Origin: a virus
IMG/VR virus record: IMGVR_UViG_3300007734_000516
Location: 1 to 25,720 of that record
Length of the DNA: 25,720 nucleotides
Direction: 5' to 3' (one strand)
A model generated the notes under the pieces. That model saw only the letters and a list, made by a program, of their open reading frames with translations, had not been told where the DNA came from and ran no database searches. Shown here one piece after another: positions 6,547-18,082 of the stretch (position 1 is its first letter; the number at the start of each line of letters is the position of its first letter). Made by a program: the position numbers and the translations under genes.

Positions 6547-6777
6547 ATGAACTTAGAGGTAGACCTTTTTGGCAATAAGCTGGAATCCCCAGCACCCCCG
6601 CCCCCGCCTGTCCCTGTTGCCAAGAAGCGTTTCCGCCCACCGGCACTGCCGTCCTACTTCCCTACCGATGCGGCCTCGCCTCCCGTCAATCTGCTTTCCA
6701 CTACCCGCCGCTACCGCGTAGTAAAGCAGTCCCCCTGCCTCACCTACATCTACCACGATGACGACGATTCCTTCTAG
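6547..6777 (+). CDS. Small Pro-rich protein
   Basis: A 76-aa protein starting MNLEVDLFGNKLES, with a polyproline run at residues 16-22 and an acidic end (HDDDDSF). It begins 5 bases after the GIY-YIG stop on the same strand, so it probably belongs to the same operon. No family recognised. It converges with, and overlaps by 4 bases, the stop of the minus-strand gene. The N-terminal DLFGN pattern is seen in small phage proteins, but that is a weak hint. Confidence is moderate because the sequence is short and biased. Confidence 0.5.
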   Translation: MNLEVDLFGNKLESPAPPPPPVPVAKKRFRPPALPSYFPTDAASPPVNLLSTTRRYRVVKQSPCLTYIYHDDDDSF

Positions 6778-7469
6778 CCCTCGTATGGGCCAGGACTGGT
6801 ATCCCCCATCAGACTCTTCTTCAAAGCCATCTTCTGTTGCTTAATCGTCTCCAGCTTCGCTTCCGCCCCTTCCTCCGCTACTACTTCCTCTGCTAGCTGT
6901 ACGCTACACCCGCTGCTACCCCCGCCCAAGCTAGCATCCCCAATATCCATCTTCCCGTTCAGCTTCGCGATGATCTCTTCCTTCGACATCGCCCCAAAGT
7001 TGTTCACCTGGATATTCACGTTGCTCCCAGCCGTCGCGCTGGCCCCTGCCAACGCCCGCTTCTTGTCAATCGTCACTGCCATCGCAAAGGGCAGCGTATG
7101 CATAGGCATATCGTCAATATCCCTAATCATCCGGTCTATCACCAGATCCGTCAACCGATCCAGCTTCCCCATCAACCGCTCGTTAAACTTTTCCACACTC
7201 ATACCAACAATCCTCTGCATGATTCGTTTGTCATCATTTGTCATATAATCCAGCACCGGGCTTTGCCTCAAGCCAATTCCATTACCTTTCAACGTAGCCG
7301 TTGCCACATCCCTAACCAACCGCTTCACCCCATACGTCCTCTTCCTCGTCGTCTCCTTCTTCCACCGATTCGGCTTCCTTGCCTTCTTCGGCTCCGCCCC
7401 AACCGCCCCCGCCAACCCACCAGCCACCCCAGCCGACCCACCACTTCCACCCACCTCCTGCTCGCTCAT
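6774..7469 (-). CDS. DNA-packaging/terminase-small-like candidate (231 aa)
   Basis: A 231-aa protein with three parts: a Gly/Ala-rich N-terminus; a basic patch (KKARKPNRWKKETTRKR, residues 28-44); and a long helical region holding a TLPFAMAVTIDKKRAL stretch. That helical segment resembles regions found in proteins that phage annotation often calls small terminase subunits or HTH packaging proteins. It overlaps the upstream gene by 4 bases (ATGA at 7466-7469), so the two are one operon. On the minus strand it lies upstream of TerL, separated by the inserted plus-strand operon. A small terminase is an inference from position, basic patch and pattern; a generic structural or DNA-binding protein is the alternative. 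Codon third positions match this frame better than the overlapping plus-strand frames. Confidence 0.55.
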   Translation of the reverse strand: MSEQEVGGSGGSAGVAGGLAGAVGAEPKKARKPNRWKKETTRKRTYGVKRLVRDVATATLKGNGIGLRQSPVLDYMTNDDKRIMQRIVGMSVEKFNERLMGKLDRLTDLVIDRMIRDIDDMPMHTLPFAMAVTIDKKRALAGASATAGSNVNIQVNNFGAMSKEEIIAKLNGKMDIGDASLGGGSSGCSVQLAEEVVAEEGAEAKLETIKQQKMALKKSLMGDTSPGPYEG

Positions 7470-8554: not shown

Positions 8555-8682
8555 AAGTGGAACTGATTTGAGGCATCAATGAATCTACTGACAAGGCAAG
8601 GCAAGTGGGAAAAGATTGCGGGAAGTTGTGATCTACTCACTTAATGAGCGCAGGTGTCCGCTTTCGGGCGCCAAAAAACAGT

Positions 8683-8706
8683 CAGCAAATCAGCAAATCA
8701 GCAAAT
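8683..8706 (+). repeat. CAGCAAAT x3 leader before the 65-aa gene
   Basis: Three perfect tandem copies of the 8-mer CAGCAAAT ending 2 bases before the ATG at 8709. No Shine-Dalgarno motif is present. Related CAGC(N)AAA units precede the starts at 10412, 10803, 11660 and 16323. Confidence 0.75.
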
Positions 8707-8708
8707 AT

Positions 8709-8906
8709 ATGAGATACGAAACAACGGAAAGTTGGACGAATGCGCAGGCTCGAAAAGTCGCGCGTTGGGACCGCGAGCAAGCTGCGCACGATGCGATGGG
8801 GACGAACAACCGGGAATTCCCGATTGAACAGATGAAAGCTAGCCCCCGTTTGCCAGGCGAAGACCTGATTGCCTACGGCTCCCGGCTCAAAGGGGGTGCA
8901 AAGTGA
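8709..8906 (+). CDS. Small basic/charged phage protein (65 aa)
   Basis: ATG at 8709 after the CAGCAAAT leader; starts MRYETTESWTNAQARKVARW and ends RLKGGAK. Charged and helical, no recognised domain. An in-frame upstream start near 8616 exists, but the leader repeat lies inside that extension, so 8709 is preferred. It overlaps the next start (GTG at 8903) by 4 bases. It is the first gene of the rightward early arm. Confidence 0.7.
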   Translation: MRYETTESWTNAQARKVARWDREQAAHDAMGTNNREFPIEQMKASPRLPGEDLIAYGSRLKGGAK

Positions 8907-9046
8907 TCACGCTCAAACAAGCGATTAAAATTAGGGAGCTTGCAAATGCCCCGGCCGATGTTCGGAAAGCTTTTCTCTCGCGAGAAAAACGACGGGTGAG
9001 ATGGGTGAGAAAACACGCTTATCTTTTTAAGGGGGGTGCGAAATGA
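8903..9046 (+). CDS. Small basic protein with GTG start (47 aa)
   Basis: GTG at 8903 overlapping the previous stop (GTGA), stop at 9044-9046 overlapping the next ATG (ATGA). The protein begins MITLKQAIKIRELANAPADV, is strongly basic (RREKRRVRW-type region around 27-37), and ends FKGGAK. Nearly the same bases, AAGGGGGTGCAAAGTGATCAC-like, occur at both of its ends, so both it and the next gene start MIT and both it and the previous gene end KGGAK. The double overlap and a strong SD-like AAGGGGG 6-7 bases before the start support real translation. Confidence 0.72.
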   Translation: MITLKQAIKIRELANAPADVRKAFLSREKRRVRWVRKHAYLFKGGAK

Positions 9047-9675
9047 TCACAATTTCATCACTAATGGAAAGTGTCGGCGGCCTTTCCGCTCCTTCTAAAA
9101 TGCCTTGTTTTGGCTATTCAATACCTGCGGCACGGTGCAAGATCGGGCGGAAAATGCGAAAAGTGGCGGGTAGCATTTGCAGCATATGCTATGCCTTGAA
9201 AGGCCGGTATGCTTTCCCTAATGTCTCGAATGCCTTGGAACGGAGATTTCAGAAGATTAGCGGCAAATCATGGGTTCGCGACATGATTGCCGTAATTTCT
9301 CGCGTTGAAGTCAGCGGGTATTTCCGCTGGCACGACGCCGGGGATTTGCAAAGCGTGGCGCATCTAAAACGCATCGTGGCAATTTGCCAAGGCACACCAC
9401 AAATCAGACATTGGCTTCCAACGCGCGAGTATACCACCGTCAGGAAATTTTTAGAGCAAGGTGGCGTGATTCCCCCGAATCTCACGATTCGCCTTAGCGC
9501 TCTAATGATTGATGGACCAGCGCCGGAAAGCCTCGCAAAGCGTCTTGGCGTGCAAGTTTCGGGCGCGAGTGCATCCGCTTATTCGTGTCCTGCACCGTCG
9601 CAAGGGAATGTCTGCGGCGATTGTCGGAAATGCTGGAGCAAAGACACTTTTAACGTGTCCTACAAGGTCCACTGA
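9043..9675 (+). CDS. GP88-family phage protein
   Basis: A 210-aa protein matching the pattern of the 'gene product 88' family known from mycobacteriophages and many other phages: a CxxC in SICSICYA (C46, C49), YFRWHDAGDLQS (residues 93-104), LPTREY (125-130), PPNLTIRLSA (144-153), a C182, and a terminal CGDCRKCW cluster (C191, C194, C197). The fixed Cys, His and Asp residues suggest a metal or Fe-S centre, but the function of the family is not known to me. The start overlaps the previous stop (ATGA) and is preceded by AAGGGGGG as Shine-Dalgarno. A strong terminator follows 20 bases after the stop, ending this three-gene operon. Confidence 0.85.
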   Translation: MITISSLMESVGGLSAPSKMPCFGYSIPAARCKIGRKMRKVAGSICSICYALKGRYAFPNVSNALERRFQKISGKSWVRDMIAVISRVEVSGYFRWHDAGDLQSVAHLKRIVAICQGTPQIRHWLPTREYTTVRKFLEQGGVIPPNLTIRLSALMIDGPAPESLAKRLGVQVSGASASAYSCPAPSQGNVCGDCRKCWSKDTFNVSYKVH

Positions 9676-9695
9676 AATTTCCCTTCGCTCCCATC

Positions 9696-9726
9696 GCCCT
9701 TCCCCTAATCCGGGAAGGGCTTTTTT
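9696..9726 (+). terminator. Rho-independent terminator after GP88 gene
   Basis: Perfect 9-bp stem GCCCTTCCC (9696-9704) / GGGAAGGGC (9712-9720), 7-base loop, then TTTTTT at 9721-9726. Confidence 0.93.
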
Positions 9727-9751
9727 ATGTCCATTTTTTTTCGGGTGCGAT

Positions 9752-9966
9752 GGCCAGGGCGCCAGGGCGAGGCAAGGCGAGGCAAGGCGAGGTCGGGCGA
9801 GGCGGGGCGAGGTCGGGCGAGGCGGGGCGAGGTCGGGCGAGGCGAGGCGAGGCAAGGGCAGGGCGAGGCGAGGCAGGGCAGGGCGAGGCGAGGCGAGGCG
9901 AGGCGGGGCGAGGCGGGGCGAGGTCGGGCGTGGATGGGCGAGGCGAGGCGAGGCAAGGGCGAGATC
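9752..9966 (+). repeat. G-rich GGCGAGG array
   Basis: About 215 bases built from imperfect units such as GGGCGAGGC, GGGCGAGGTC and GGCAAGGC. G runs of two to four recur on the plus strand, which fits G-quadruplex-forming DNA or RNA. Long ORFs here exist only because the period is a multiple of three or lacks stops; they are low-complexity and not credible genes. It is the first part of a 736-bp gene-free stretch (9676-10411). Confidence 0.85.
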
Positions 9967-10012
9967 GGGCCGGCCAGCGCGGCGCGGCCCAGTTGGCCGG
10001 CGCGGCCTCACC

Positions 10013-10307
10013 GCTTGGCTTGACCGGCTTGACCCAGCCGCTTGACCGCTTGATCGGCTTGACCCGTTTGATCGGCTTGATCCGCTTGATCGGCTTGATC
10101 GGCTTGATCGGCTTTGATCGGCTTGATCGGCTTTGATCGGCTTGATCGGCTTTGATCGGCTTGATCGGCTTGATCGGCTTGATCGGCTTGATCGGCTTGA
10201 TCGGCTTGATCGGCTTGATCGGCTTTGATCGGCTTTGATCGGCTTGATCGGCTTTGATCGGCTTGATCGGCTTGATCGGCTTGATCGGGTCGACCGAGCT
10301 TGACCGC
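10013..10307 (+). repeat. 9-bp tandem array, unit CTTGATCGG
   Basis: About 25 copies of TTGATC in a 9-bp period, with occasional 10-bp units carrying an extra T and edge units of TTGACC. Each unit has a GATC. The unit looks like the -35 box of the promoter immediately to its right (TTGACC at 10328). There are no spacers, so this is a minisatellite, not a CRISPR array. A degenerate copy of the same layout lies at 11335-11545. Confidence 0.92.
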
Positions 10308-10327
10308 AAATAAATAATAATAGACGC

Positions 10328-10356
10328 TTGACCCAACTCACCTAGTGTGCATTCTC
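10328..10356 (+). promoter_or_regulatory. Promoter P1, TTGACC-17-ATTCTC
   Basis: -35 TTGACC (10328-10333), 17-bp spacer, -10-like ATTCTC (10351-10356), preceded by an AT-rich UP-like stretch (10308-10321). The same -35, spacer length and -10 occur at 11568-11596, and a close form at 14673-14701. It drives the ORF at 10412. Confidence 0.7.
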
Positions 10357-10366
10357 CCTCTCATCA

Positions 10367-10411
10367 GCTCCCATTCCGGGAGCATCAACTCAGCGAAAAC
10401 TTAGCGAAATT
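10367..10411 (+). promoter_or_regulatory. 5' leader: hairpin plus CAGCGAAA units
   Basis: A perfect 6-bp hairpin GCTCCC-attcc-GGGAGC (10367-10383) followed by CAGCGAAAAC and TAGCGAAAT (10391-10410) right before the ATG at 10412. No Shine-Dalgarno motif. Confidence 0.6.
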
Positions 10412-10699
10412 ATGAACAACATCTCCTCTTCCTCCGCCTTGGTGTTCTGGACTGCGCCAAAATCATTAGCCAAGTTGGCCGACAGCGGCAGCAGCCTCCT
10501 TAAGCCGGGCAGAAACCTTTCATCTTGGCACATAACCAAGATCGCGCCCTCCCTTTTCAGGGCTGGCCATTTTTCTCTGACAGGGCATGGAGATGCACTG
10601 GACGCTCAAATTAACAATATCCCAACCGGGCGCACGCCCGGACGGGCACTCCGGAATTTCCGCCGAAAGCTGCGGAAATCGCCGATCGCTTTCGCATGA
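10412..10699 (+). CDS. Orphan small basic protein (95 aa), single-gene unit
   Basis: ATG at 10412 downstream of promoter P1 and the CAGCGAAA leader; the stop is 21 bases before a strong terminator. It therefore sits alone in its own transcription unit. The protein starts MNNISSSSALVFWTAPKSL, is Ser-rich, then ends basic (RNFRRKLRKSPIAFA). No family recognised. The reading frame is not strongly distinguished by codon use and an opposing ORF (10520-10780) exists, so the region could instead carry a structured RNA. The signals at both ends favour a real transcript. Confidence 0.45.
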   Translation: MNNISSSSALVFWTAPKSLAKLADSGSSLLKPGRNLSSWHITKIAPSLFRAGHFSLTGHGDALDAQINNIPTGRTPGRALRNFRRKLRKSPIAFA

Positions 10700-10720
10700 A
10701 AGCCACCCTCTGAAAAACCA

Positions 10721-10752
10721 CCCCGCTACCTCCTCGGAGGCGCGGGGTTTTT
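10721..10752 (+). terminator. Rho-independent terminator
   Basis: Stem CCCCGC / GCGGGG with inner CCTCC / GGAGG (10721-10747), followed by TTTTT at 10748-10752. Confidence 0.9.
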
Positions 10753-10786
10753 CTGGTGCCAGAGCATTTCGCCGAGGCATTTAACT

Positions 10787-10802
10787 CAGCTAAAACAGCA
10801 TT
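10787..10802 (+). promoter_or_regulatory. CAGCTAAAA leader before 78-aa gene
   Basis: CAGCTAAAACAGCATT directly before the ATG at 10803, without a Shine-Dalgarno motif. No clear TTGACC promoter lies between the terminator ending at 10752 and this start; two GAGCATTT/GAGGCATTT elements at 10762-10782 recall the -10 side of P1/P2. Confidence 0.55.
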
Positions 10803-11039
10803 ATGACAACATCACACTTAATCAAACCCGCCATCAGTCGGAGCATCAGTCATGACGAGATCGTTTTGCTTTTGGTGGACGACGCAAGACAAGCCCTTGA
10901 GTGTATCGACAATGACGAAAACGTGACGGAGCTGGATTACACCGATACCGACAACGGCATTGACTGTTGGGGAAAGCGGTTCGGCGAAGACTTTCGCTTG
11001 TTGATCCGCTCCACCGGTCTTGTCGGAGGTGCCGCATGA
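10803..11039 (+). CDS. Small acidic phage protein (78 aa)
   Basis: A 78-aa acidic protein: MTTSHLIKPAISRSISHDEI, then a helical segment and an Asp-rich beta-like part (ELDYTDTDNGIDCWGKRFGEDFRLLIR). No family recognised. Its stop overlaps the start of the next gene (ATGA at 11036). It is expressed behind the CAGCTAAAA leader with no Shine-Dalgarno. Confidence 0.7.
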   Translation: MTTSHLIKPAISRSISHDEIVLLLVDDARQALECIDNDENVTELDYTDTDNGIDCWGKRFGEDFRLLIRSTGLVGGAA

Positions 11040-11284
11040 GTGCCACCACCTACACCGAAATCTCCCTAGAAGCCGCCGAGGCGATCTTCGGTGGCAAGCT
11101 GCCCGAATACCTCTGCAAAGAAAACAATTACGGCACCGCCGCCTTTCACTTCACCGCTTTCAAGGAAATCGTCGAGGCTGACGTGGCTCGCATCGCTGCT
11201 CAAAAAGCCGCAAAGCTCGCCGCTCGTGCTGCCCGCGCCGCTGTGCCAGCCCGCACATTCCGCCTAGTCTCAATCGGAGATTAA
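11036..11284 (+). CDS. Small Ala-rich phage protein (82 aa)
   Basis: ATG at 11036 in an ATGA overlap with the 78-aa gene. The protein starts MSATTYTEISLEAAEAIFGG and has a long Ala/Lys/Arg helix (residues 53-72) before a short end (TFRLVSIGD). No family recognised. A terminator begins 7 bases after the stop, so this closes a two-gene unit. A longer upstream start exists in frame but would run deep into the previous gene. Confidence 0.7.
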   Translation: MSATTYTEISLEAAEAIFGGKLPEYLCKENNYGTAAFHFTAFKEIVEADVARIAAQKAAKLAARAARAAVPARTFRLVSIGD

Positions 11285-11290
11285 GAATCT

Positions 11291-11319
11291 CCCACTCCTT
11301 CACCGGAGTGGGCTTTTTT
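11291..11319 (+). terminator. Rho-independent terminator
   Basis: Perfect 8-bp stem CCCACTCC (11291-11298) / GGAGTGGG (11305-11312), 6-base loop, then C and TTTTTT to 11319. Confidence 0.93.
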
Positions 11320-11334
11320 GTGCCGGTTTGCCGG

Positions 11335-11545
11335 CATCGATTGGCCGAGGCAGGGCGATGGGCAGGATCGGGGCAGGATCAGGGCGCAAATGGGCAGGAA
11401 ACGGCACAAGCGGGGCCAACAGGGGCGACGCTCGACCGCTTGACCGCTTGGCTTGACCGCTTGGCTTGAGCCAGCCGCACCGCTTGACCGCTTGATCCGC
11501 TCGACCGGCCCACTGCTTGATCGGCTTGACCGCTTAACGCCTTAA
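11335..11545 (+). repeat. Second, degenerate G-rich plus TTGACCGC array
   Basis: It follows the same order as 9752-10307: first a G-rich part with GGGCAGGATC/GGGGCAGG units (about 11340-11430), then CTTGACCGC, CTTGGCTTGACCGC and CTTGATCGG units (about 11430-11545), then an AAATAAAATAAG stretch. It fills the gene-free gap 11285-11659 with the promoter P2. Confidence 0.8.
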
Positions 11546-11567
11546 ATAAAATAAGACGTTATGGTGC

Positions 11568-11596
11568 TTGACCTATCTCATCAACTGAGCATTCTC
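11568..11596 (+). promoter_or_regulatory. Promoter P2, TTGACC-17-ATTCTC
   Basis: -35 TTGACC (11568-11573), 17-bp spacer, ATTCTC (11591-11596). It matches P1 at both boxes and spacing, and the two spacers share the CTCA core. Internally TGACCTATCTC and TGAGCATTCTC form a direct repeat 17 bases apart. Confidence 0.75.
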
Positions 11597-11630
11597 ACTC
11601 GTATCGACCCGCTTTTGGGCCGTAACAAAC

Positions 11631-11659
11631 CAGCTAAAAACAGCTAAAAAACAGCAAAT
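11631..11659 (+). repeat. CAGCTAAAAA x2 plus CAGCAAAT leader
   Basis: Two perfect CAGCTAAAAA units (11631-11650) followed by ACAGCAAAT directly before the ATG at 11660. No Shine-Dalgarno motif. Confidence 0.75.
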
Positions 11660-11941
11660 ATGAATACATACTGCCTCGATCGTTACTATCGGATCACGAT
11701 CACGAATTTGATCCTTAAATCTCAACCGGAGGGCCATCCAGTCGAGCTGGCACTTGACTCCATGGATTTCTCGGCTCCCACCTACGAGGACATCATTACC
11801 GAGATCCGCGGTCAGGTGGACGCTGACACGGTGCAAGTCGTTGACCGCTTGGATTGGGATGGCAGGGGAACCGTGACGGTCACCGGATTCGGCTTGGGCG
11901 AGGATGGTGAGGAGTTTTGCGTCGTCATCCGCTGCTACTAA
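11660..11941 (+). CDS. Small phage protein (93 aa)
   Basis: A 93-aa protein with an alternating beta pattern (YYRITITNLILKS, GTVTVTGFGLG, EEFCVVIRCY) and an acidic middle. No family recognised. It is the first gene behind promoter P2 and the CAGC leader, and the next gene starts 4 bases after its stop. The first residues include MNTYCLDRYYRITITN. Reading on the plus strand is favoured over a same-length minus ORF by its position behind the promoter. Confidence 0.7.
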   Translation: MNTYCLDRYYRITITNLILKSQPEGHPVELALDSMDFSAPTYEDIITEIRGQVDADTVQVVDRLDWDGRGTVTVTGFGLGEDGEEFCVVIRCY

Positions 11942-11945
11942 TACC

Positions 11946-12200
11946 ATGACGCTCCCAATTATTCACAGCAACGGAACCTCGGCCAAAGAGTTGACCGAGG
12001 GTTATCATGCCGCCCGGCTGGCGATGGAACGGGCTATCACGGCCCTCGCCAAGGTCGAATTTAATGCGAGAGATTATTACGTTCGTCAGGGTGCTTGGCA
12101 AGCGGCGCAGCTTGAGCGCGAGGAAATGTTTAACGACCTTCGCCGCATCACCAATGACCTGATGAAACACGAATGGCACTGTTCAAATTCGATCAAATAA
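11946..12200 (+). CDS. Small helical phage protein (84 aa)
   Basis: ATG at 11946, 84 aa, starting MTLPIIHSNGTSAKELTEGY. Almost entirely helical and charged from residue 13 on, suggesting a coiled-coil or helical bundle (AARLAMERAITALAKVEF). No family recognised. It lies 4 bases after one gene and 11 before the methyltransferase ATG, so all are probably one transcript from P2. An in-frame start at 11904 is possible but would overlap the previous gene by 38 bases. Confidence 0.7.
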   Translation: MTLPIIHSNGTSAKELTEGYHAARLAMERAITALAKVEFNARDYYVRQGAWQAAQLEREEMFNDLRRITNDLMKHEWHCSNSIK

Positions 12201-12211
12201 CATAACATGAC

Positions 12212-13411
12212 ATGGATACTACCGAAACAACTACACACCTTGGCCTGTGCGCTGGGTACGGAGGCATTGAGCTTGGACTCAAACGAGTCATCCCAAATCT
12301 GCGCTCAGTCGCTCTTTGTGAGATCGAAGCCTTCGCAGTTGCGAATCTGGTCAGCAAAATGGAGGCGGGACTCATGGAGCCAGCACCTATTTGGACGGAT
12401 CTTAAGACCTTCCCTTGGGAAAGCTTTCGAGACAAAGTGGACATCCTCTCTGGCGGTTATCCGTGCCAACCATTTAGTGCAGCCGGCAAGCGACTTGGAG
12501 GTGAAGACCCCAGGCATCTCTGGCCCTACATCGCAGATGGAATTCGACTTCTTCGACCCAAGCTCTGTTTCTTTGAAAACGTCGAAGGACACATTAGTCT
12601 CGGACTCCGAGAAGTCGTTGGAGAACTGGAACAAATTGGTTATTCAACGGCGTGGGGAATATTCTCAGCGGCTGAAGTTGGCGCACCGCACCAGAGAAAG
12701 CGGGTCTTCATCATGGCCTACCGTGACCGCGAACGAGGACAGTTATCGAATTGGTGGAGAGAGTCAGCAGAGCAAATGCCTTTCAGCGATGGCGAGACGA
12801 GGGGAAATGTCTGGCCTAGTCGCCCCGGTCAACCCCAGCACGCATGGGAAGGATGCGAATTGGCCGACACCGATACAAGGGGACAGTCACTTGGCATCAA
12901 CGCCAGAAGCGGCTCAACGCAGGATTGCAGAGGGCAAAGTTACACTCTCAAGACTAGTGGAGTCTGGCCTTCCCGCCCCGGTCAACCCCAGTACGGATGG
13001 GAGCCACCAAGAGTCGTGGGCAACGCCGAGAGCAGGCAAGACAACGGACGAGAACCCGGAGACTTGGGCGGCGAGGCAAGCCAAGGGGGATGTGGCACCT
13101 GTGCCGCTGACGGCGCAAGTGAAGGCGTGGGCGACACCGACAATAGGCGGCGAGGAAGGAGCGGAGACGAGACTAGCGAGAGGCAGGGACATGGGTCTGC
13201 ACGCGCAAGTGGGAGCGATGAAAAACTCAGCCAAACTGAACAGTCGCTGGGTGGAAACCCTGATGGGTCTGCCGGTGGGATGGACTATGCCGAGCTGTGC
13301 GTCACCTGTGACAACCGTACTGACGAACTCCGCCTCCTCGGCAACGGAGTCGTCCCTGCCACCGCAACCCTAGCCTTCCGCACCCTTCTTCAAGAAATTA
13401 TTTCCGCTTAA
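12212..13411 (+). CDS. DNA (cytosine-5) methyltransferase
   Basis: A 399-aa C5-methyltransferase. Motif I LCAGYGGIELG (residues 12-22, SAM binding), motif IV GYPCQPFSAAG (82-92, catalytic C85), motif VI ENVEG (122-126), motif VIII QRKRVFI (161-167), and a C-terminal motif X LLGNGVVPATATLAFRTL (375-391). Between motifs VIII and X the sequence is Gly/Asp/Ser/Arg-rich, with a repeated VWPSRPGQPQ element at about 200 and 250. It would methylate phage DNA, probably against host restriction; no cognate endonuclease gene is nearby. The target site cannot be read from the sequence. A second conserved protein is encoded in another frame of the same DNA (12537-13373). The start is 11 bases after the previous stop, without a clear Shine-Dalgarno. 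Confidence 0.95.
   Translation: MDTTETTTHLGLCAGYGGIELGLKRVIPNLRSVALCEIEAFAVANLVSKMEAGLMEPAPIWTDLKTFPWESFRDKVDILSGGYPCQPFSAAGKRLGGEDPRHLWPYIADGIRLLRPKLCFFENVEGHISLGLREVVGELEQIGYSTAWGIFSAAEVGAPHQRKRVFIMAYRDRERGQLSNWWRESAEQMPFSDGETRGNVWPSRPGQPQHAWEGCELADTDTRGQSLGINARSGSTQDCRGQSYTLKTSGVWPSRPGQPQYGWEPPRVVGNAESRQDNGREPGDLGGEASQGGCGTCAADGASEGVGDTDNRRRGRSGDETSERQGHGSARASGSDEKLSQTEQSLGGNPDGSAGGMDYAELCVTCDNRTDELRLLGNGVVPATATLAFRTLLQEIISA
12537..13373 (+). CDS. Overlapping out-of-frame gene nested in the methyltransferase
   Basis: A 278-aa reading frame from ATG 12537, +1 relative to the methyltransferase and wholly inside it. The protein has order and motifs I recognise from a family of phage proteins of unknown function that travel with cytosine methyltransferases: MEFDFF, SLKTSKDT, SDSEKSLENWN, RRGEYSQRLKLAHRTRESGS, repeated SWPTVTAN / NWPTP / SWATPRAG / AWATPTIGG blocks, then LNSRWVETLMGLPVGWT and a Ser/Pro-rich end. 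Random out-of-frame readings do not give such ordered motifs, so dual coding is likely. An in-frame start at 12207 would add 110 residues without family features, so 12537 is preferred. No Shine-Dalgarno motif is seen. Function is not known; an accessory to the methyltransferase is inference. Confidence 0.68.
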   Translation: MEFDFFDPSSVSLKTSKDTLVSDSEKSLENWNKLVIQRRGEYSQRLKLAHRTRESGSSSWPTVTANEDSYRIGGESQQSKCLSAMARRGEMSGLVAPVNPSTHGKDANWPTPIQGDSHLASTPEAAQRRIAEGKVTLSRLVESGLPAPVNPSTDGSHQESWATPRAGKTTDENPETWAARQAKGDVAPVPLTAQVKAWATPTIGGEEGAETRLARGRDMGLHAQVGAMKNSAKLNSRWVETLMGLPVGWTMPSCASPVTTVLTNSASSATESSLPPQP

Positions 13412-13438
13412 AATAAATCATCAAATCATCATCTTCTT

Positions 13439-13693
13439 ATGCCTTCACCAATAACTTTTCAAATCCTTATCCGCCGTAAGCGCCGCGCTCTCGGTTTAAC
13501 CCAGGCCCAGCTTGCAGCTATGCTCGACATCTCCCACAGGACTTTAGACTCTTGGGAGCGGTCAGAAATAAACCACAAGCCGCACATCCTGACCCAGGAG
13601 GCCGTCTGGGCGCGGATAGCTGCCTTCGATGCCCCTCCCGTCCCGCTTGACCCGCTTGATCCAGCTCTCTCAGCAGCTCCAGCAACGCCCTAA
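13439..13693 (+). CDS. XRE-family (Cro/CI-type) DNA-binding protein
   Basis: An 84-aa protein with a helix-turn-helix of the Cro/C1 type at about residues 7-48 (LIRRKRRALGLTQAQLAAML, ISHRTLDSWERSE). Short proteins like this are typical phage regulators, acting on operators in the early region. The C-terminal 20 residues are unstructured Pro-rich (VPLDPLDPALSAAP), encoded by a CGCTTGACCCGCTTGATCC stretch resembling the intergenic minisatellite. It lies 27 bases after the methyltransferase stop. The targets are not known; the TTGACC/TGACC promoter repeats are candidates. Confidence 0.85.
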   Translation: MPSPITFQILIRRKRRALGLTQAQLAAMLDISHRTLDSWERSEINHKPHILTQEAVWARIAAFDAPPVPLDPLDPALSAAPATP

Positions 13694-13718
13694 AAAATAA
13701 CTCCTTCCCCTTCTTTTT

Positions 13719-13940
13719 ATGTCCTACGAAAACAGCAACTGCCCCTGTGGTGGTAAGAAACTAACCAACACGATGCTTTGCCCTACTTGTGAAGTTTCAT
13801 TCTCCACTCATCCAGACCGCTTTGCGATGTGGGATCGCAAACTACCGTTTGCTGCCCGCCGTCAGGCTGCAATCAGGGTTCTGGCCATGTCTCGCAAACG
13901 GGCCGCTCAAGGATCTTCTCTTCCTCTGTCTTTCTCCTAA
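13719..13940 (+). CDS. Small zinc-ribbon-like protein (73 aa)
   Basis: A 73-aa protein starting MSYENSNCPCGGKKLTNTML. Four cysteines, C8, C10, C21 and C24, make a CxC-N10-CxxC pair suited to zinc binding. The C-terminal half is a basic helical region (FAARRQAAIRVLAMSRKRAA). No further family call. It lies 25 bases after the XRE gene in the same direction. Confidence 0.65.
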   Translation: MSYENSNCPCGGKKLTNTMLCPTCEVSFSTHPDRFAMWDRKLPFAARRQAAIRVLAMSRKRAAQGSSLPLSFS

Positions 13941-13978
13941 CAGCTGCGGTCAGCTCTTCAAAACTCACCGAAAACAAC

Positions 13979-14173
13979 ATGGCTATCACCGACCTCCACA
14001 ATGATCCGAACCACATCGTGCGCTCATTCGTGATCCCGAATGCTCCGACAACAGAAGGCATGAGCTACCAGACCGCCGATGGTCGAGTTTGGCGCGAAAC
14101 ATGGAACACCAACTGCGGCACCGCTCAAACTCTCGGACGTGTGCGCGATAATCGCGTCGAGCCTCTTCGCTGA
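13979..14173 (+). CDS. Small phage protein (64 aa)
   Basis: ATG at 13979 gives MAITDLHNDPNHIVRSFVIP and a beta-like second half (GRVWRETWNTNCGTAQTLGR). No family recognised. Weak CAGC-type leader units (CAGCTGCGGTCAGC, ACCGAAAACAAC) precede it. Longer in-frame starts would overlap the zinc-ribbon gene out of frame and look non-coding. It is the last gene before a 534-bp gene-free stretch. Confidence 0.6.
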   Translation: MAITDLHNDPNHIVRSFVIPNAPTTEGMSYQTADGRVWRETWNTNCGTAQTLGRVRDNRVEPLR

Positions 14174-14672
14174 ACAGCTCCAGTTGGTAAAGCTGGCTTG
14201 GTTAGGCTTGGTTAATCGCGTTTTGGTTCGGGTAACCGTTGGTTGCATAGCTCACCCCCTTGCGAGGGATGAGCTACTGGCTAACGCGCCTTGGACGGGG
14301 TGTCTGGCTCGCATTGAGGAGCCTGCTCGGTAGTGCCATCGCACACAGGACATCCTCGGCTCACTAGGTTTAAACCTTCACTACTTATGCCAGCGGGTGA
14401 TCGTTCTGGCTGCCGATTCTAATGATCAGAGGCTGATTCCTAACCCACCTTTCGGTGCGGCGGCTTGTGGGCCAATCTCAGCTTGAGGTCTTTGCAGCGT
14501 TGCGGGCTGCTCGCGCATCAGGGCATAAAAAAGCCCGCGTGGTAGAAGGCACGTCGGGCAACTGACTCCTAAAATGTTATGCTCGTCGCGGCTTCTACCC
14601 CGTTTGACGAGGGAGAACCTGAGCGAAGCACAACCCTCCGCAACTTATTTTTAAGAAACTTTGCGAAATAGT
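14174..14672. other. Gene-free stretch with several hairpins, candidate structured RNA or control region
   Basis: No convincing ORF on either strand. It contains GGCTTGGTTAGGCTTGGTT units near 14190 resembling the TTG-type arrays, a GGTT-cgggt-AACC hairpin (about 14226), a 7-bp hairpin TAGCTCA / TGAGCTA with inner CCC/GGG pairing (14248-14276), a CCCACC...GTGGG structure near 14443-14470, and a GCGGGCT/AGCCCGC pair near 14500-14538. I looked for a tRNA cloverleaf and found no canonical T-arm. A minus-strand terminator lies inside it, and promoter P3 ends it. Confidence 0.5.
14527..14559 (-). terminator. Minus-strand terminator
   Basis: Read on the minus strand: GCCCGaCGTG stem (14559-14550), 8-base loop, CACGCGGGC (14541-14533), then TTTTTT (14532-14527). 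A 9-bp stem with one bulge. No clear minus-strand gene ends here, so it may stop antisense transcription or end a non-coding RNA. Confidence 0.7.
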
Positions 14673-14701
14673 TTGACCTATCTCCAACAAGTGACCTATC
14701 T
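14673..14701 (+). promoter_or_regulatory. Promoter P3, TTGACC-17-CTATCT, repeat-containing
   Basis: -35 TTGACC (14673-14678), 17-bp spacer, CTATCT at 14696-14701. TGACCTATCTCC occurs twice, 18 bases apart (14674-14685 and 14692-14703). The ATG at 14708 is only 7 bases past the -10, so the transcript would be leaderless or nearly so. Confidence 0.6.
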
Positions 14702-14707
14702 CCTCTC

Positions 14708-14929
14708 ATGCCCACTTTGGGCACGTTCAGCAACCTCATCAAACCAGCTATGATTATCGATCCGCCAGAAATCGCTCTGACACCAGAGCAGATAGAGTCA
14801 GACATCCAGGCCGAGCAGGCTTGGTACGAAGCCCGTCGCCTCACCGAGGGTGACGTTGACGCCTTGGCCGAGCAAGACGCGGAAGGCCGCAACTATCGCC
14901 GGGGAATCAAGGGAGGCCGTCATGATTAA
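14708..14929 (+). CDS. Small acidic phage protein (73 aa), possibly leaderless
   Basis: ATG at 14708, 73 aa, starting MPTLGTFSNLIKPAMIIDPP, then an acidic helical region (ALTPEQIESDIQAEQAWYEARRLTE-type, residues 23-48) and a basic end (GRNYRRGIKGGRHD). No family recognised. It follows promoter P3 so closely that the mRNA may lack a leader. It overlaps the next start by 8 bases. An opposing minus ORF (14569-14892) is rejected because this gene opens the clear operon to 16976. Confidence 0.72.
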   Translation: MPTLGTFSNLIKPAMIIDPPEIALTPEQIESDIQAEQAWYEARRLTEGDVDALAEQDAEGRNYRRGIKGGRHD

Positions 14930-15116
14930 AAAAGCCTATCGTAAAAACAAGGGCGTCCTCGCCGCCTTGTACGCGGCCCAAGCGTGGAGAGGGGCAGCGG
15001 TCATTGCTGGTTGTTACGAGATCAACAACAAGCAGGAGCTGCTTTCGTTTTACAGATCCTCCATGCGTAATTGGGCAAAGTACGCCATCAAACGTCAAAG
15101 AATCAAAACGTCATGA
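14922..15116 (+). CDS. Tandem-duplicated small protein, copy A (64 aa)
   Basis: ATG at 14922 gives MIKKAYRKNKGVLAALYAAQ and shares its whole plan with the next gene: MIKKA/MIKEA, AAQAWR, HYEI/CYEIN, K-L-x-FYRSSMR-WAK. Basic, helical, no known domain. The start overlaps the previous stop by 8 bases and its own stop overlaps the next ATG (ATGA). No function can be assigned; small nucleic-acid-binding proteins are one possibility, given the charge. Confidence 0.72.
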   Translation: MIKKAYRKNKGVLAALYAAQAWRGAAVIAGCYEINNKQELLSFYRSSMRNWAKYAIKRQRIKTS

Positions 15117-15310
15117 TTAAAGAAGCCCTGTGGAAGAACGCTGACGTTGCAGCCAGTCTGCGTGCGGCTCAAGCTTGGCGGCAAGCGATTAACGTCTCGC
15201 AGCACTACGAAATCAAAGACGGCAAGAAGTTAATGGACTTCTACAAATCATCGATGCGGAGCTGGGCGAAACACGCTCTTCTCCTTCAAAAACTTTCCCC
15301 CAAGGAATAA
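15113..15310 (+). CDS. Tandem-duplicated small protein, copy B (65 aa)
   Basis: ATG at 15113 in ATGA overlap; begins MIKEALWKNADVAASLRAAQ. Residues AAQAWR, HYEIKDGKKLMDFYKSSMRS and WAKHAL line up with copy A over its full length without large gaps. Both are basic. The product is unknown, but it sits directly before Gp157, so the pair probably belongs to the DNA-replication module. Confidence 0.72.
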   Translation: MIKEALWKNADVAASLRAAQAWRQAINVSQHYEIKDGKKLMDFYKSSMRSWAKHALLLQKLSPKE

Positions 15311-15314
15311 CAAA

Positions 15315-15830
15315 ATGAAACTATATCAAATCCCATCGCAGATCGAAGAGATCTTCAGCTTCATCGACCAAGTACTCGCAGACGAGAGTCTGGCCGAAAA
15401 CGAGAAACAGGGCAAACTTGCCACCCTTAAGGATCAGTTAAATCTTGTCCAGATGGAGCGCAGGCAGAAATGCCTGTGGCTCTCACGCCAGTTCTTGAAC
15501 CTCCAGGCCGAGCGCATGGCGGTCAACGAACAACGCCAGAAGTTCAGCGAGCGCGTCGCCCGGCTGGACAAGCAGACCGAGTCCATCAAGAACTTCCTTG
15601 GCGTCATTCTCGACGCCGGCGAGAAGATGGCTGACGAGGTGACGCAGATCTCTTGGAGGAAGTCCGAGGGAGTCATTCTGCGGTGCGATCCTGAGTCCCT
15701 TCCTGCCCGTTTTACCCGCATCAAGGTCGAAGCCAGTCTCACCTCCCTCAAAGAGGCTTTAAAGGCTGGAGATCGCGAAGCGGCCCAAGTCGCCGTCCTT
15801 GAGCAGCGTCAAACCATTGCCATCAAATGA
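15315..15830 (+). CDS. Gp157-family protein
   Basis: A 171-aa protein with the plan of the siphovirus Gp157 family: an N-terminal helix with LxxLxxQLxL pattern (residues 10-45), a long charged coiled-coil middle (residues 45-110: RQFLNLQAERMAVNEQRQKF, ERVARLDKQTESIKNFL), then a beta-rich end with a W-R-K-S-E pattern (ISWRKSEGVILRC) and a closing helix. The family lies in replication/recombination clusters of phages beside SSB or recombinases; its exact role is unproven. It has a Shine-Dalgarno AAGGAA 8 bases before the ATG, rare in this arm. The stop overlaps the next start (ATGA). Confidence 0.85.
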   Translation: MKLYQIPSQIEEIFSFIDQVLADESLAENEKQGKLATLKDQLNLVQMERRQKCLWLSRQFLNLQAERMAVNEQRQKFSERVARLDKQTESIKNFLGVILDAGEKMADEVTQISWRKSEGVILRCDPESLPARFTRIKVEASLTSLKEALKAGDREAAQVAVLEQRQTIAIK

Positions 15831-16312
15831 AAACCAAGTCTGATTTATCAGAATATAGACAGCGAATAAACGACAACGTCCGAGGTTTGTTTTGCGACTG
15901 GGTTGATGAAGTGGTCGAGCATTCCATAAAACAAGTGGAAGATCTAATAATTGATGCGAAAAAAACTTTTGAGAGAGTCAAAGAACTTGAGGCAATTATT
16001 GCTCATAGAGAAGCCGAGGACAATTACGCCAAGGTTCAAAAAGAAGCCGCGGAAGCCTATGCCAACAGACCTTGGAAAGAACCTTCAGTGCCAATTTCTT
16101 CTTTAACATTATCGACCAGGATTCAGACTCTTTTTGATCAAGAAGGCTTTCAAAGCATTGGCGATATAATCGATAAGACCGAATATGATTTGTCCGCTAT
16201 TCGTAATTTTGGAAAGGTTTCCTTAGCAATTTTAAAAAATGAACTTGCTAAACATGGCTACGCTCTTCGCAGCGCAGAAGACTCTCATTTGTCAGCAAAC
16301 GTCAGCAAATAA
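15827..16312 (+). CDS. RNA polymerase alpha-CTD-like protein with coiled coil
   Basis: A 161-aa protein overlapping Gp157 (ATGA). Residues 1-80 are helical and charged (coiled coil). Residues 88-148 match the C-terminal domain of the RNA polymerase alpha subunit: SLTLSTRIQTLFDQEGF, SIGDIIDKTEYDL, IRNFGKVSLAIL, AKHGYAL. Arg98 corresponds to E. coli R265; N127, G129, K130 and S132 to N294, G296, K297 and S299, residues of the DNA/UP-element contact surface. N268, K298 and E302 are not kept. This is the helix-hairpin-helix fold that also contacts activators. The gene is more AT-rich than its neighbours. Roles could be mimicry or capture of host transcription, or simply DNA binding; which one is inference. 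Its 3' end is built from CAGCAAA units used as leader of the next gene. Confidence 0.8.
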   Translation: MKTKSDLSEYRQRINDNVRGLFCDWVDEVVEHSIKQVEDLIIDAKKTFERVKELEAIIAHREAEDNYAKVQKEAAEAYANRPWKEPSVPISSLTLSTRIQTLFDQEGFQSIGDIIDKTEYDLSAIRNFGKVSLAILKNELAKHGYALRSAEDSHLSANVSK

Positions 16313-16322
16313 AGTAAATTAT
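16293..16322 (+). promoter_or_regulatory. CAGCAAA leader overlapping the previous gene end
   Basis: CAGCAAACGT and CAGCAAATAA (16293-16312) encode the end of the previous protein and precede the SD-less ATG at 16323. Confidence 0.6.
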
Positions 16323-17424: not shown

Positions 17425-17507
17425 GCGCATTATTCTGCCTCATTATTTCAGTCTTGGCCTTCTGCGTAGGTTATATGATGGGCTACCTATCGAGAGATCT
17501 AAAATGA
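17421..17507 (+). CDS. 28-aa single-pass membrane microprotein
   Basis: ATG at 17421 and stop TGA 17505-17507, overlapping both neighbours by ATGA. Sequence begins MSALFCLIISVLAFCVG and is followed by YMMGYLSRDLK, with one hydrophobic helix (about residues 3-22) and a basic end. The two exact overlaps in a chain of coupled genes support real translation; it is too short for standard gene callers. Function is unknown; small membrane peptides of phages can alter host membrane or act in exclusion, which is only a suggestion. Confidence 0.6.
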   Translation: MSALFCLIISVLAFCVGYMMGYLSRDLK

Positions 17508-18082
17508 AACACTTAAACTTAACGCCAAAAGAATTTTGCTCTGCCACCAACGCTTGCCGAGAAGGCCGAGTATTTTGCGAGAAATACAACACGATGGCAG
17601 AGGTTTGGGACGCGTGTAAGAAAGCAGAGTGGCTCCTCTGGATTTTAAGGGCTATCGACGCTCCAGCGAATGAAAAGAACGAGCGACTGTTCGCAGTTTG
17701 GTGCGCTCGAAACACTCCAATGCACGACGGACGCACGACGGGCGCATTGCTCACTGATCCACGCAGTGTGGCAGCTCTTGAGGTTGCCGAGCTATTTGCG
17801 TACGGGAATGCAACTAAGGAGGAGTTGGCTGCGGCATCGGCTGCGGCACGGGCTGCGGCATGGGATGCGGCTGCGGATGCGGCTGCGGATGCGGCATCGG
17901 CTGCGGCATCGGCTGCGGCACGGGCTGCGGCACGGGCTGCGGCATGGGATGCGGCATCGGCTGCGGCATGGGCTGCGGCACGGGCTGCGGCACGGGCTGC
18001 GGCATGGGATGCGGCTGCGGATGCGGCTGCGGATGCTCAGGCAAATCAATTTCGCACAATGATCAGTAATCCATTCAAATGA
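17504..18082 (+). CDS. Ala-rich repeat protein with immunity-like N-terminal domain
   Basis: A 192-aa protein in two parts. Residues 1-115 (MKHLNLTPKEFCSATNACRE, AEWLLWILRAI, RLFAVWCARNTP, LTDPRSVAALEVAELFAYGN) resemble a family of 'putative immunity' proteins common in phage and metagenomic genomes. Residues 108-180 are a tandem repeat of AAARAAAWDAA and AADAAADAA, encoded by GCTGCGGCNNGG units at about 17828-18036; the DNA is repetitive in codons as well. The tail NQFRTMISNPFK is ordinary. It overlaps the microprotein (ATGA) and the next gene (ATGA). The length of the repeat probably varies between related phages. What it is immune to, if anything, is not visible. Confidence 0.68.
   Translation: MKHLNLTPKEFCSATNACREGRVFCEKYNTMAEVWDACKKAEWLLWILRAIDAPANEKNERLFAVWCARNTPMHDGRTTGALLTDPRSVAALEVAELFAYGNATKEELAAASAAARAAAWDAAADAAADAASAAASAAARAAARAAAWDAASAAAWAAARAAARAAAWDAAADAAADAQANQFRTMISNPFK

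Follow-up and report, generated by a model that had tools for sequence, protein, structure and literature searches.

CAG-repeat leaders before transcript-first genes lacking a Shine-Dalgarno sequence in a phage family

In the 25,720-base IMG/VR virus record IMGVR_UViG_3300007734_000516 (the window, analysed over its full length), several genes without a Shine-Dalgarno (SD) sequence are preceded by a short repeat, CAGC(A/T/G)AAA. The explanation that we favour, with a probability of about 0.6, is a mobile 5'-leader cassette in which the repeats provide the landing site for the ribosome and which serves the first genes of (mainly early) transcription units by SD-independent de novo initiation, with SD reinitiation at the genes downstream. 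An initial annotation of this DNA had proposed that the repeat replaces the SD, as a translation enhancer, an S1-binding site or the target of an RNA-binding regulator; the observation holds and extends to a phage family, and the interpretation is partly supported. How ribosomes find SD-less starts is an open question, and genes that carry an SD-less leader in one genome and an SD overlap in another offer natural matched pairs for testing the signals.

In its fullest form the proposed cassette would begin with a promoter region and a short GC-rich hairpin, the hairpin lying near the point where the RNA is predicted to start. Between hairpin and AUG there would be a single-stranded stretch, poor in G and rich in A and C, in which one to four CAG words occur, usually with an A tract behind each. 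Transcription would start near the hairpin, which would hold the 5' end folded and stable. The 30S subunit would start de novo on the open stretch without SD pairing, helped by A tracts near -13 and -9/-10, possibly via S1 and the mRNA channel, and expression of the first gene would depend on these steps. At the ATGA/GTGA overlaps, which often come with an SD, ribosomes would terminate and reinitiate on the downstream genes. In the direction of insertion that we infer, the leader/ATG junction is where new genes come in, and the displaced first gene then has an overlap and an SD; the junction suggests a way for a phage to take in new genes and express them at once.

All the copies listed in the initial annotation were found where it had placed them. 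In the closest relative of the window, L002 (G001, 38.8 kb), leaders of this kind occupy the corresponding places. The leaders, all on the plus strand, are as follows.

8683-8706, plus strand: three tandem copies of CAGCAAAT, 2 nt 5' of ATG 8709; L002 homology stops within the repeat.
10391-10409, plus strand: CAGCGAAAACTTAGCGAAA, made of CAGCGAAA and TAGCGAAA, before ATG 10412; L002 homology stops here.
10787-10802, plus strand: CAGCTAAAACAGCATT, with CAGCTAAAA at 10787 and CAGCATT, before ATG 10803 and 3' of the terminator hairpin of the preceding unit.
11631-11659, plus strand: CAGCTAAAAACAGCTAAAAAACAGCAAAT, two copies of CAGCTAAAAA and one of CAGCAAAT, abutting ATG 11660; L002 has another gene inserted here.
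14728-14749, plus strand: CAGCAACCTCATCAAACCAGCT before ATG 14750, a sixth leader missed earlier; its L002 counterpart, CAGCAACCTCCAGCAAATCCAGCT, has one extra copy of CAGCAAAT.
16293-16309, plus strand: CAGCAAACGTCAGCAAA, with CAGCAAA at 16293 and 16303, upstream of ATG 16323.

The word CAGCDAA occurs 27 times in the window, against 14.1 +/- 3.5 in shuffled sequences, none of 100 shuffles reaching 27. Ten of the 27 copies of CAGC(A/G/T)AA lie 8-30 nt before five gene starts where 0.8 would be expected, the 40-nt upstream windows making up 2.9% of the two strands (P ~2e-9, a post hoc value in which tandem copies are counted singly, the independent events being the five clusters). The absence of an SD at the five starts named earlier was borne out, with duplex energies of -0.4 to +1.2 kcal/mol. 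The weakest case is 16323, because the pair overlaps the 3' end of ORF 15827-16312, lies 20-30 nt from the ATG and is absent in L002.

The position of a gene in its transcript seems to set its start signal. The whole contigs of 22 relatives were compared, using gene calls from a simple hexamer model and predicted start sites. Family-wide, the frequency of a 4-nt SD core at -16 to -4 was 41% for coupled starts, 18% for close starts and 8% for first genes, where the controls gave 14%, 9% and 12%, respectively, the difference between coupled and first genes having a P of 4e-15. In the window, the internal genes were said to use ATGA overlaps; the overlaps are there, but strong SD-like sequences had been overlooked at several of these ATGA/GTGA starts (8903, 9043, 11036, 14922, 18647 and 6774-7469). 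The two kinds of start stand side by side in the following features.

8709-9675, plus strand: unit 1, with ORF 8709-8906 first and without SD; ORFs 8903-9046 and 9043-9675 (GP88 family, PF17338) are coupled and have GGGGG SD-like sites.
11024-11032, plus strand: a GGAGG SD-like site before the coupled start 11036 (ATGA overlap), given for contrast.

Three gene families were found with a CAG leader when first in the unit and with an SD-like GGAGG or GGGGG and an ATGA/GTGA overlap when internal. The gene at 11660 has the CAGC leader and ATG in the window and TTGGAGGTGCGAAGTGA in L002. The MNKSQHW gene follows a hairpin and CCAGTAAAAACAG in four relatives (G007, G009, G011, G012) and has AAGGAGGACGCTAAATGA in L293, where a 95-codon gene lies between the leader and it. 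GP88 has AACCAGTACAACCAACCAGTAAAAAA in G009 and AAGGGGGGTGCGAAATGA in the window. Leader or SD therefore tracks position and not the gene. Given the SD frequencies of coupled starts and first genes, the proposal that the repeat replaces the SD is valid for transcript-first genes only, and motif-less first genes are SD-less as well. SD-less first genes are the general state of the family and, since first genes lack an SD with or without the motif, the motif elaborates on an initiation that does without the SD. The coupled starts look SD-dependent, so there is no need for an unusual anti-SD in the host, which had also been suggested.

For the terminase of the window, IMG/VR contains 161 relatives; among named phages the best is C75C1 (terminase 32%, portal 33%). 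The leader type was seen in at least ten related phage genomes, usually as a 5' hairpin followed by a G-poor, A-rich stretch with 1-4 CAG words up to the ATG. The word is CAGC[A/T/G]AAA in the window and CCAGTAAA in relatives. Leaders of the form CCAGTAAA(AA)CAG, mostly 3' of a hairpin, occur in G002, G007, G009, G011, G012, G022 and L293 (also as CCAGTAAAAACAG), CCAGTA(AA) leaders in the high-GC relatives G003 and G004 (G004 also with CCAGTAAA), and the gene matching 16323 carries ACCAGTAAGTCC in G004 and G022. Since CAG leaders recur across relatives, including high-GC ones, the window's word seems to be the local form of an element found throughout the family. In the low-GC family genomes, CAG[CT]?NAAA was found 46 times in 40-nt upstream windows against 9.0 expected; permuted or substituted control words were mostly near expectation (AAATGAC was invalid as a control because ATG lies within it). 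Generic 5-mer enrichment yielded no clear single motif, probably because orthologs dominate.

The leaders are also distinct in composition and predicted folding. In 27 leaders, A makes up 45% and C 31%, and G outside CAG is 4.9%; A reaches 63-70% at -14 to -12, near the family's general A peak at -14/-13, and 67% at -10/-9. The predicted unpaired fraction of the start region was 0.73 for motif leaders and 0.52 for 296 other starts (P 1.7e-10). A role in translation start from a 5' leader is supported by this accessibility, by the closeness of the motif to the ATG, by its restriction to first genes and its retention in relatives, and further by the same genes having lost the motif and carrying an SD where they are internal.

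It is also conceivable that the CAG word is inert, low structure and A-richness being sufficient and the word going back to a single ancestral leader that was duplicated, with slippage into tandem copies. Leaders 10412 and 11660 are alike (~68% over 200 bp across genomes), motif-less first genes do without an SD as well, and accessibility alone allows SD-less translation (PMC5397173). Nevertheless, the word is kept though promoter, hairpin and spacing differ among leaders and among genomes whose terminases are ~75% identical, the G of CAG is almost the sole G retained in the leaders, and the control words are mostly unenriched; we regard an inert word as rather unlikely. Some sequence recognition of the CAG word is plausible, because the word outlives changes of promoter, hairpin and spacing. 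A stronger version, which we put forward tentatively and do not expect to hold, is that CAG plus A tract is a sequence-specific de novo start signal with a reader of its own, either ribosome-associated or a phage factor. The family would then have two start codes, one for transcript-first genes and SD for reinitiation, with genes moving between them.

As to what reads the repeats, S1 or a regulator is possible. Binding of the repeats, as RNA, by a repressor or activator of early translation from host or phage, in a position comparable to RegA or TRAP control, would agree with the tandem copies, the fixed core and the irregular 8-14 nt spacing beside the AUG; yet no candidate regulator was identified in the analysis and pairing of the leaders with a conserved nearby non-coding RNA showed no excess (mean z +0.4). 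We hold this to be improbable.

A non-coding block of ~220 nt at 14205-14425 (plus strand), just 5' of an early leader, is conserved in 13 family genomes (73-91%), being found also in G001, G003, G005, G007, G009, G011, G012, G014, G017, G018, G019 and G022. Of its 49 predicted pairs, 11 show double changes that preserve the pairing, and the block matched nothing in Rfam except a chance-level anti-hemB. It is a good candidate for a structured RNA of phages that has not been described before. Over the window, neither the Rfam scan nor the tRNA scan gave a match at gathering level.

The mobility of the cassette is suggested by the points at which related genomes part. Nucleotide homology between the window and L002 stops inside the repeat at three leaders (8697/3523, 10399/5011 and 11644/6040). 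At these leaders the 100 nt 5' of the ATG are 70-84% identical and the 100 nt 3' ~50%, which is background for a gapped alignment (the L002 start used for 8709 was one base off, which hardly affects the value). In L293, homology stops after CAACCAGTAAAAACAG. Different genes follow the points where inter-genome homology breaks in the motif; at 14750 both leader and gene are conserved between the window and L002. Breakpoints inside repeats at several leaders, with genes differing or being added exactly there, would also be seen if the repeats acted as DNA, as short recombination or operator sequences at module boundaries. However, the motifs lie on the coding strand, end at the ATG, are predicted to be single-stranded in RNA and are mostly 3' of RNA hairpins, and the palindromic elements sit further 5', in the promoter region, so that we consider a DNA role very unlikely.

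Leaders 8709, 10412, 11660 and 14750 share one order: promoter region, short hairpin, CAG repeats and ATG. The hairpins in the window are mostly of the CCC..TTT..GGG type. TTGACC-17-ATTCTC, read by eye, is present at two of the four leaders, and a dyad of the CTCA-N5-TGAG type is perfect at two and imperfect at a third. The elements are listed below.

8636-8648, plus strand: dyad CTCACTTAATGAG in the promoter region 5' of leader 1; the L002 counterpart is CTCATTAAGTGA.
8653-8672, plus strand: hairpin of leader 1, GGTGTCCGCTTTCGGGCGCC (z -3.6); the L002 stem differs at several positions and still pairs.
10328-10356, plus strand: putative promoter TTGACC-17-ATTCTC with imperfect dyad CTCACCTAGTGTG; the spacing is identical at 11568.
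10367-10383, plus strand: hairpin of leader 2, GCTCCCATTCCGGGAGC (z -5.4).
11568-11596, plus strand: promoter-like TTGACC-17-ATTCTC with dyad CTCATCAACTGAG, by inspection.
11605-11622, plus strand: hairpin of leader 4, CGACCCGCTTTTGGGCCG, weak (z -0.8).
14673-14702, plus strand: promoter-like TTGACCTATCTC region of leader 5, by inspection.
14709-14723, plus strand: hairpin of leader 5, TGCCCACTTTGGGCA (z -2.9).

Promoter-like hexamers and hairpins lie ~40-90 nt 5' of the starts, which would imply a 5' UTR and not a transcript beginning at the AUG, and intrinsic-terminator-like sites are found at the unit ends 9696, 10732 and 11291. Across the family, most of 22 leaders have a predicted hairpin (mean z -2.57 over the 22, the majority at -2.3 or below), and one orthologous leader hairpin shows pair-preserving double changes at three pairs in four genomes. 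The hairpin lies near the predicted 5' end in most leaders, as it would if hairpin and motif were an antitermination or RNA-stability element (put/nut-like, or a 5' protecting hairpin) with the linear motif incidental, but the hairpins differ in sequence and loop, the motif occurs in some leaders that lack a hairpin (G003, G004 33222 and 35563, G007 13711) and the units finish at intrinsic-terminator-like sites, which makes such an element highly improbable.

Some sequences near the promoters were noted in passing. The CTCA-N5-TGAG dyads (8636-8648 and 11577-11589, imperfect at 10337) are a possible operator, perhaps for the HTH protein encoded at 13439-13693. Arrays of 9-10 nt CTTGATCGG/CTTGACCG repeats at 10018-10300 and 11430-11540 lie 5' of two leader promoters and include the TTGACC word of the presumed -35 element. 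Another intergenic array, of ~10-nt GGCGAGGCGA-type repeats, occupies 9760-9960, and L002 has one likewise.

Several observations weigh against a ribosome-landing cassette. A sigma-70 consensus scan found no promoter at the leaders, for which reason the promoter at 10328 is given as putative, and the -10-like hexamer ATTCTC matches sigma-70 poorly. Several leaders have no hairpin or only a weak one, and there are no AAA repeats in the L002 counterpart of leader 16323. Many first genes of the family are without the motif, which is therefore not required for SD-less initiation. The 22 leaders used for structure and the 27 used for composition were selected for motif presence, the P values are post hoc and ignore shared ancestry, and part of the likeness among the leaders of one genome reflects paralogy and is not independent. 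A scan for hairpin plus ATG was not discriminating, since the control word AAG gave 9 matches and CAG 11.

The leader appears to be a variant of the start-associated leader cassettes of phages, itself new, which would work like the start-associated sequence (SAS) of Cluster K mycobacteriophages and is distinct from it. The SAS is a 13-bp GGGATAGGAGCCC that contains the SD core (Pope et al. 2011, PMC3203893). As with SAS and ESAS, a short conserved sequence is repeated in one phage group a few nt before the starts, mostly ATG, of non-structural genes of different families, in one orientation; about half of the SAS have an upstream inverted repeat, and the CAG leaders likewise have one just upstream. 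Unlike SAS, the CAG leaders lack an SD and their word is CAG plus A tract, often in tandem; RNA pairing is supported for the CAG-leader hairpins and not for the ESAS repeats. The SAS consensus GGGATAGGAGCCC, with up to 2 mismatches, had no match in the window, and pairing of an AGGAG-type core with 16S rRNA gave duplex energies of ~0 at all motif starts.

T4-type phages, as Arbiol and colleagues are said to have described in 2010, have mobile regulatory cassettes of early promoter and stem-loop where small early genes are exchanged. Stem-loops and gene exchange were seen in the window family, with promoters read by inspection, so that its leaders may resemble these cassettes; they would differ in the CAG/A-tract stretch that runs up to the ATG without an SD. 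By terminase, portal and major head protein the window phage has its relatives among non-T4 phages, C75C1 for example, and it belongs to a group unrelated to the T4 type. The omega leader of tobacco mosaic virus is G-poor, has three 8-nt direct repeats and CAA tracts and works without an SD; it resembles the CAG leaders in its G-poor repeats and belongs to a plant RNA virus, with no homology.

SD-less starts in general have little structure (PMC5397173). In SD-less Flavobacterium, adenines at -12/-13 promote initiation and S1 is the suspected reader, and SD-less starts of Bacteroidetes have A at -3 and at -12/-13 (PMC6847099). The window family shares with Bacteroidetes first genes without SD, an A-rich unstructured region and A near -13, and differs in the specific repeated CAG word and in the SD of its coupled starts, since overlapping genes of Bacteroidetes have none (PMC6728339). 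In Haloarchaea, Crenarchaeota I and Cyanobacteria, SD is far commoner for reinitiation than at leading genes (Huber et al. 2019, PMC6728339). Leading genes without SD and overlapping downstream genes with SD are common to those taxa and the window family, which is distinguished by being a phage family, by its dedicated leader motif and by single genes seen in both modes.

The words were also searched for in IMG/VR. Triple CAGC repeats occur in >120 stretches, of which only two pass the non-coding-leader filter (the window and L167), so the triple word alone is not a family marker. The search with CAACCAGTAAAAACAG gave 61 matches, 7 of them before an ATG and five of those 7 in the window's phage family; tandem AACCAGTA gave 128, with 8 before an ATG and few being leaders. 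The promoter dyad pattern matched only a close relative and an unrelated contig. For the host, a terminase match led to a 7-kb, 1.8x-coverage contig in an alphaproteobacterial metagenome-assembled genome in which no 16S was found, too weak a link to be used. SD-poor members occur in Verrucomicrobia (PMC10783764) and Cyanobacteria (PMC6728339), and no link was found between the window phage and either group.

Elsewhere in the window, a DNA methyltransferase gene (12212-13411) is overlapped by a long ORF in another frame (12207-13373). Two small neighbouring genes, 14922-15116 and 15113-15310, have similar protein products and seem to stem from a tandem duplication, and ORF 17504-18082 contains a long GCGGCTGCGGAT/GCGGCATCGGCT repeat (17820-18040) that encodes an alanine-rich tract.

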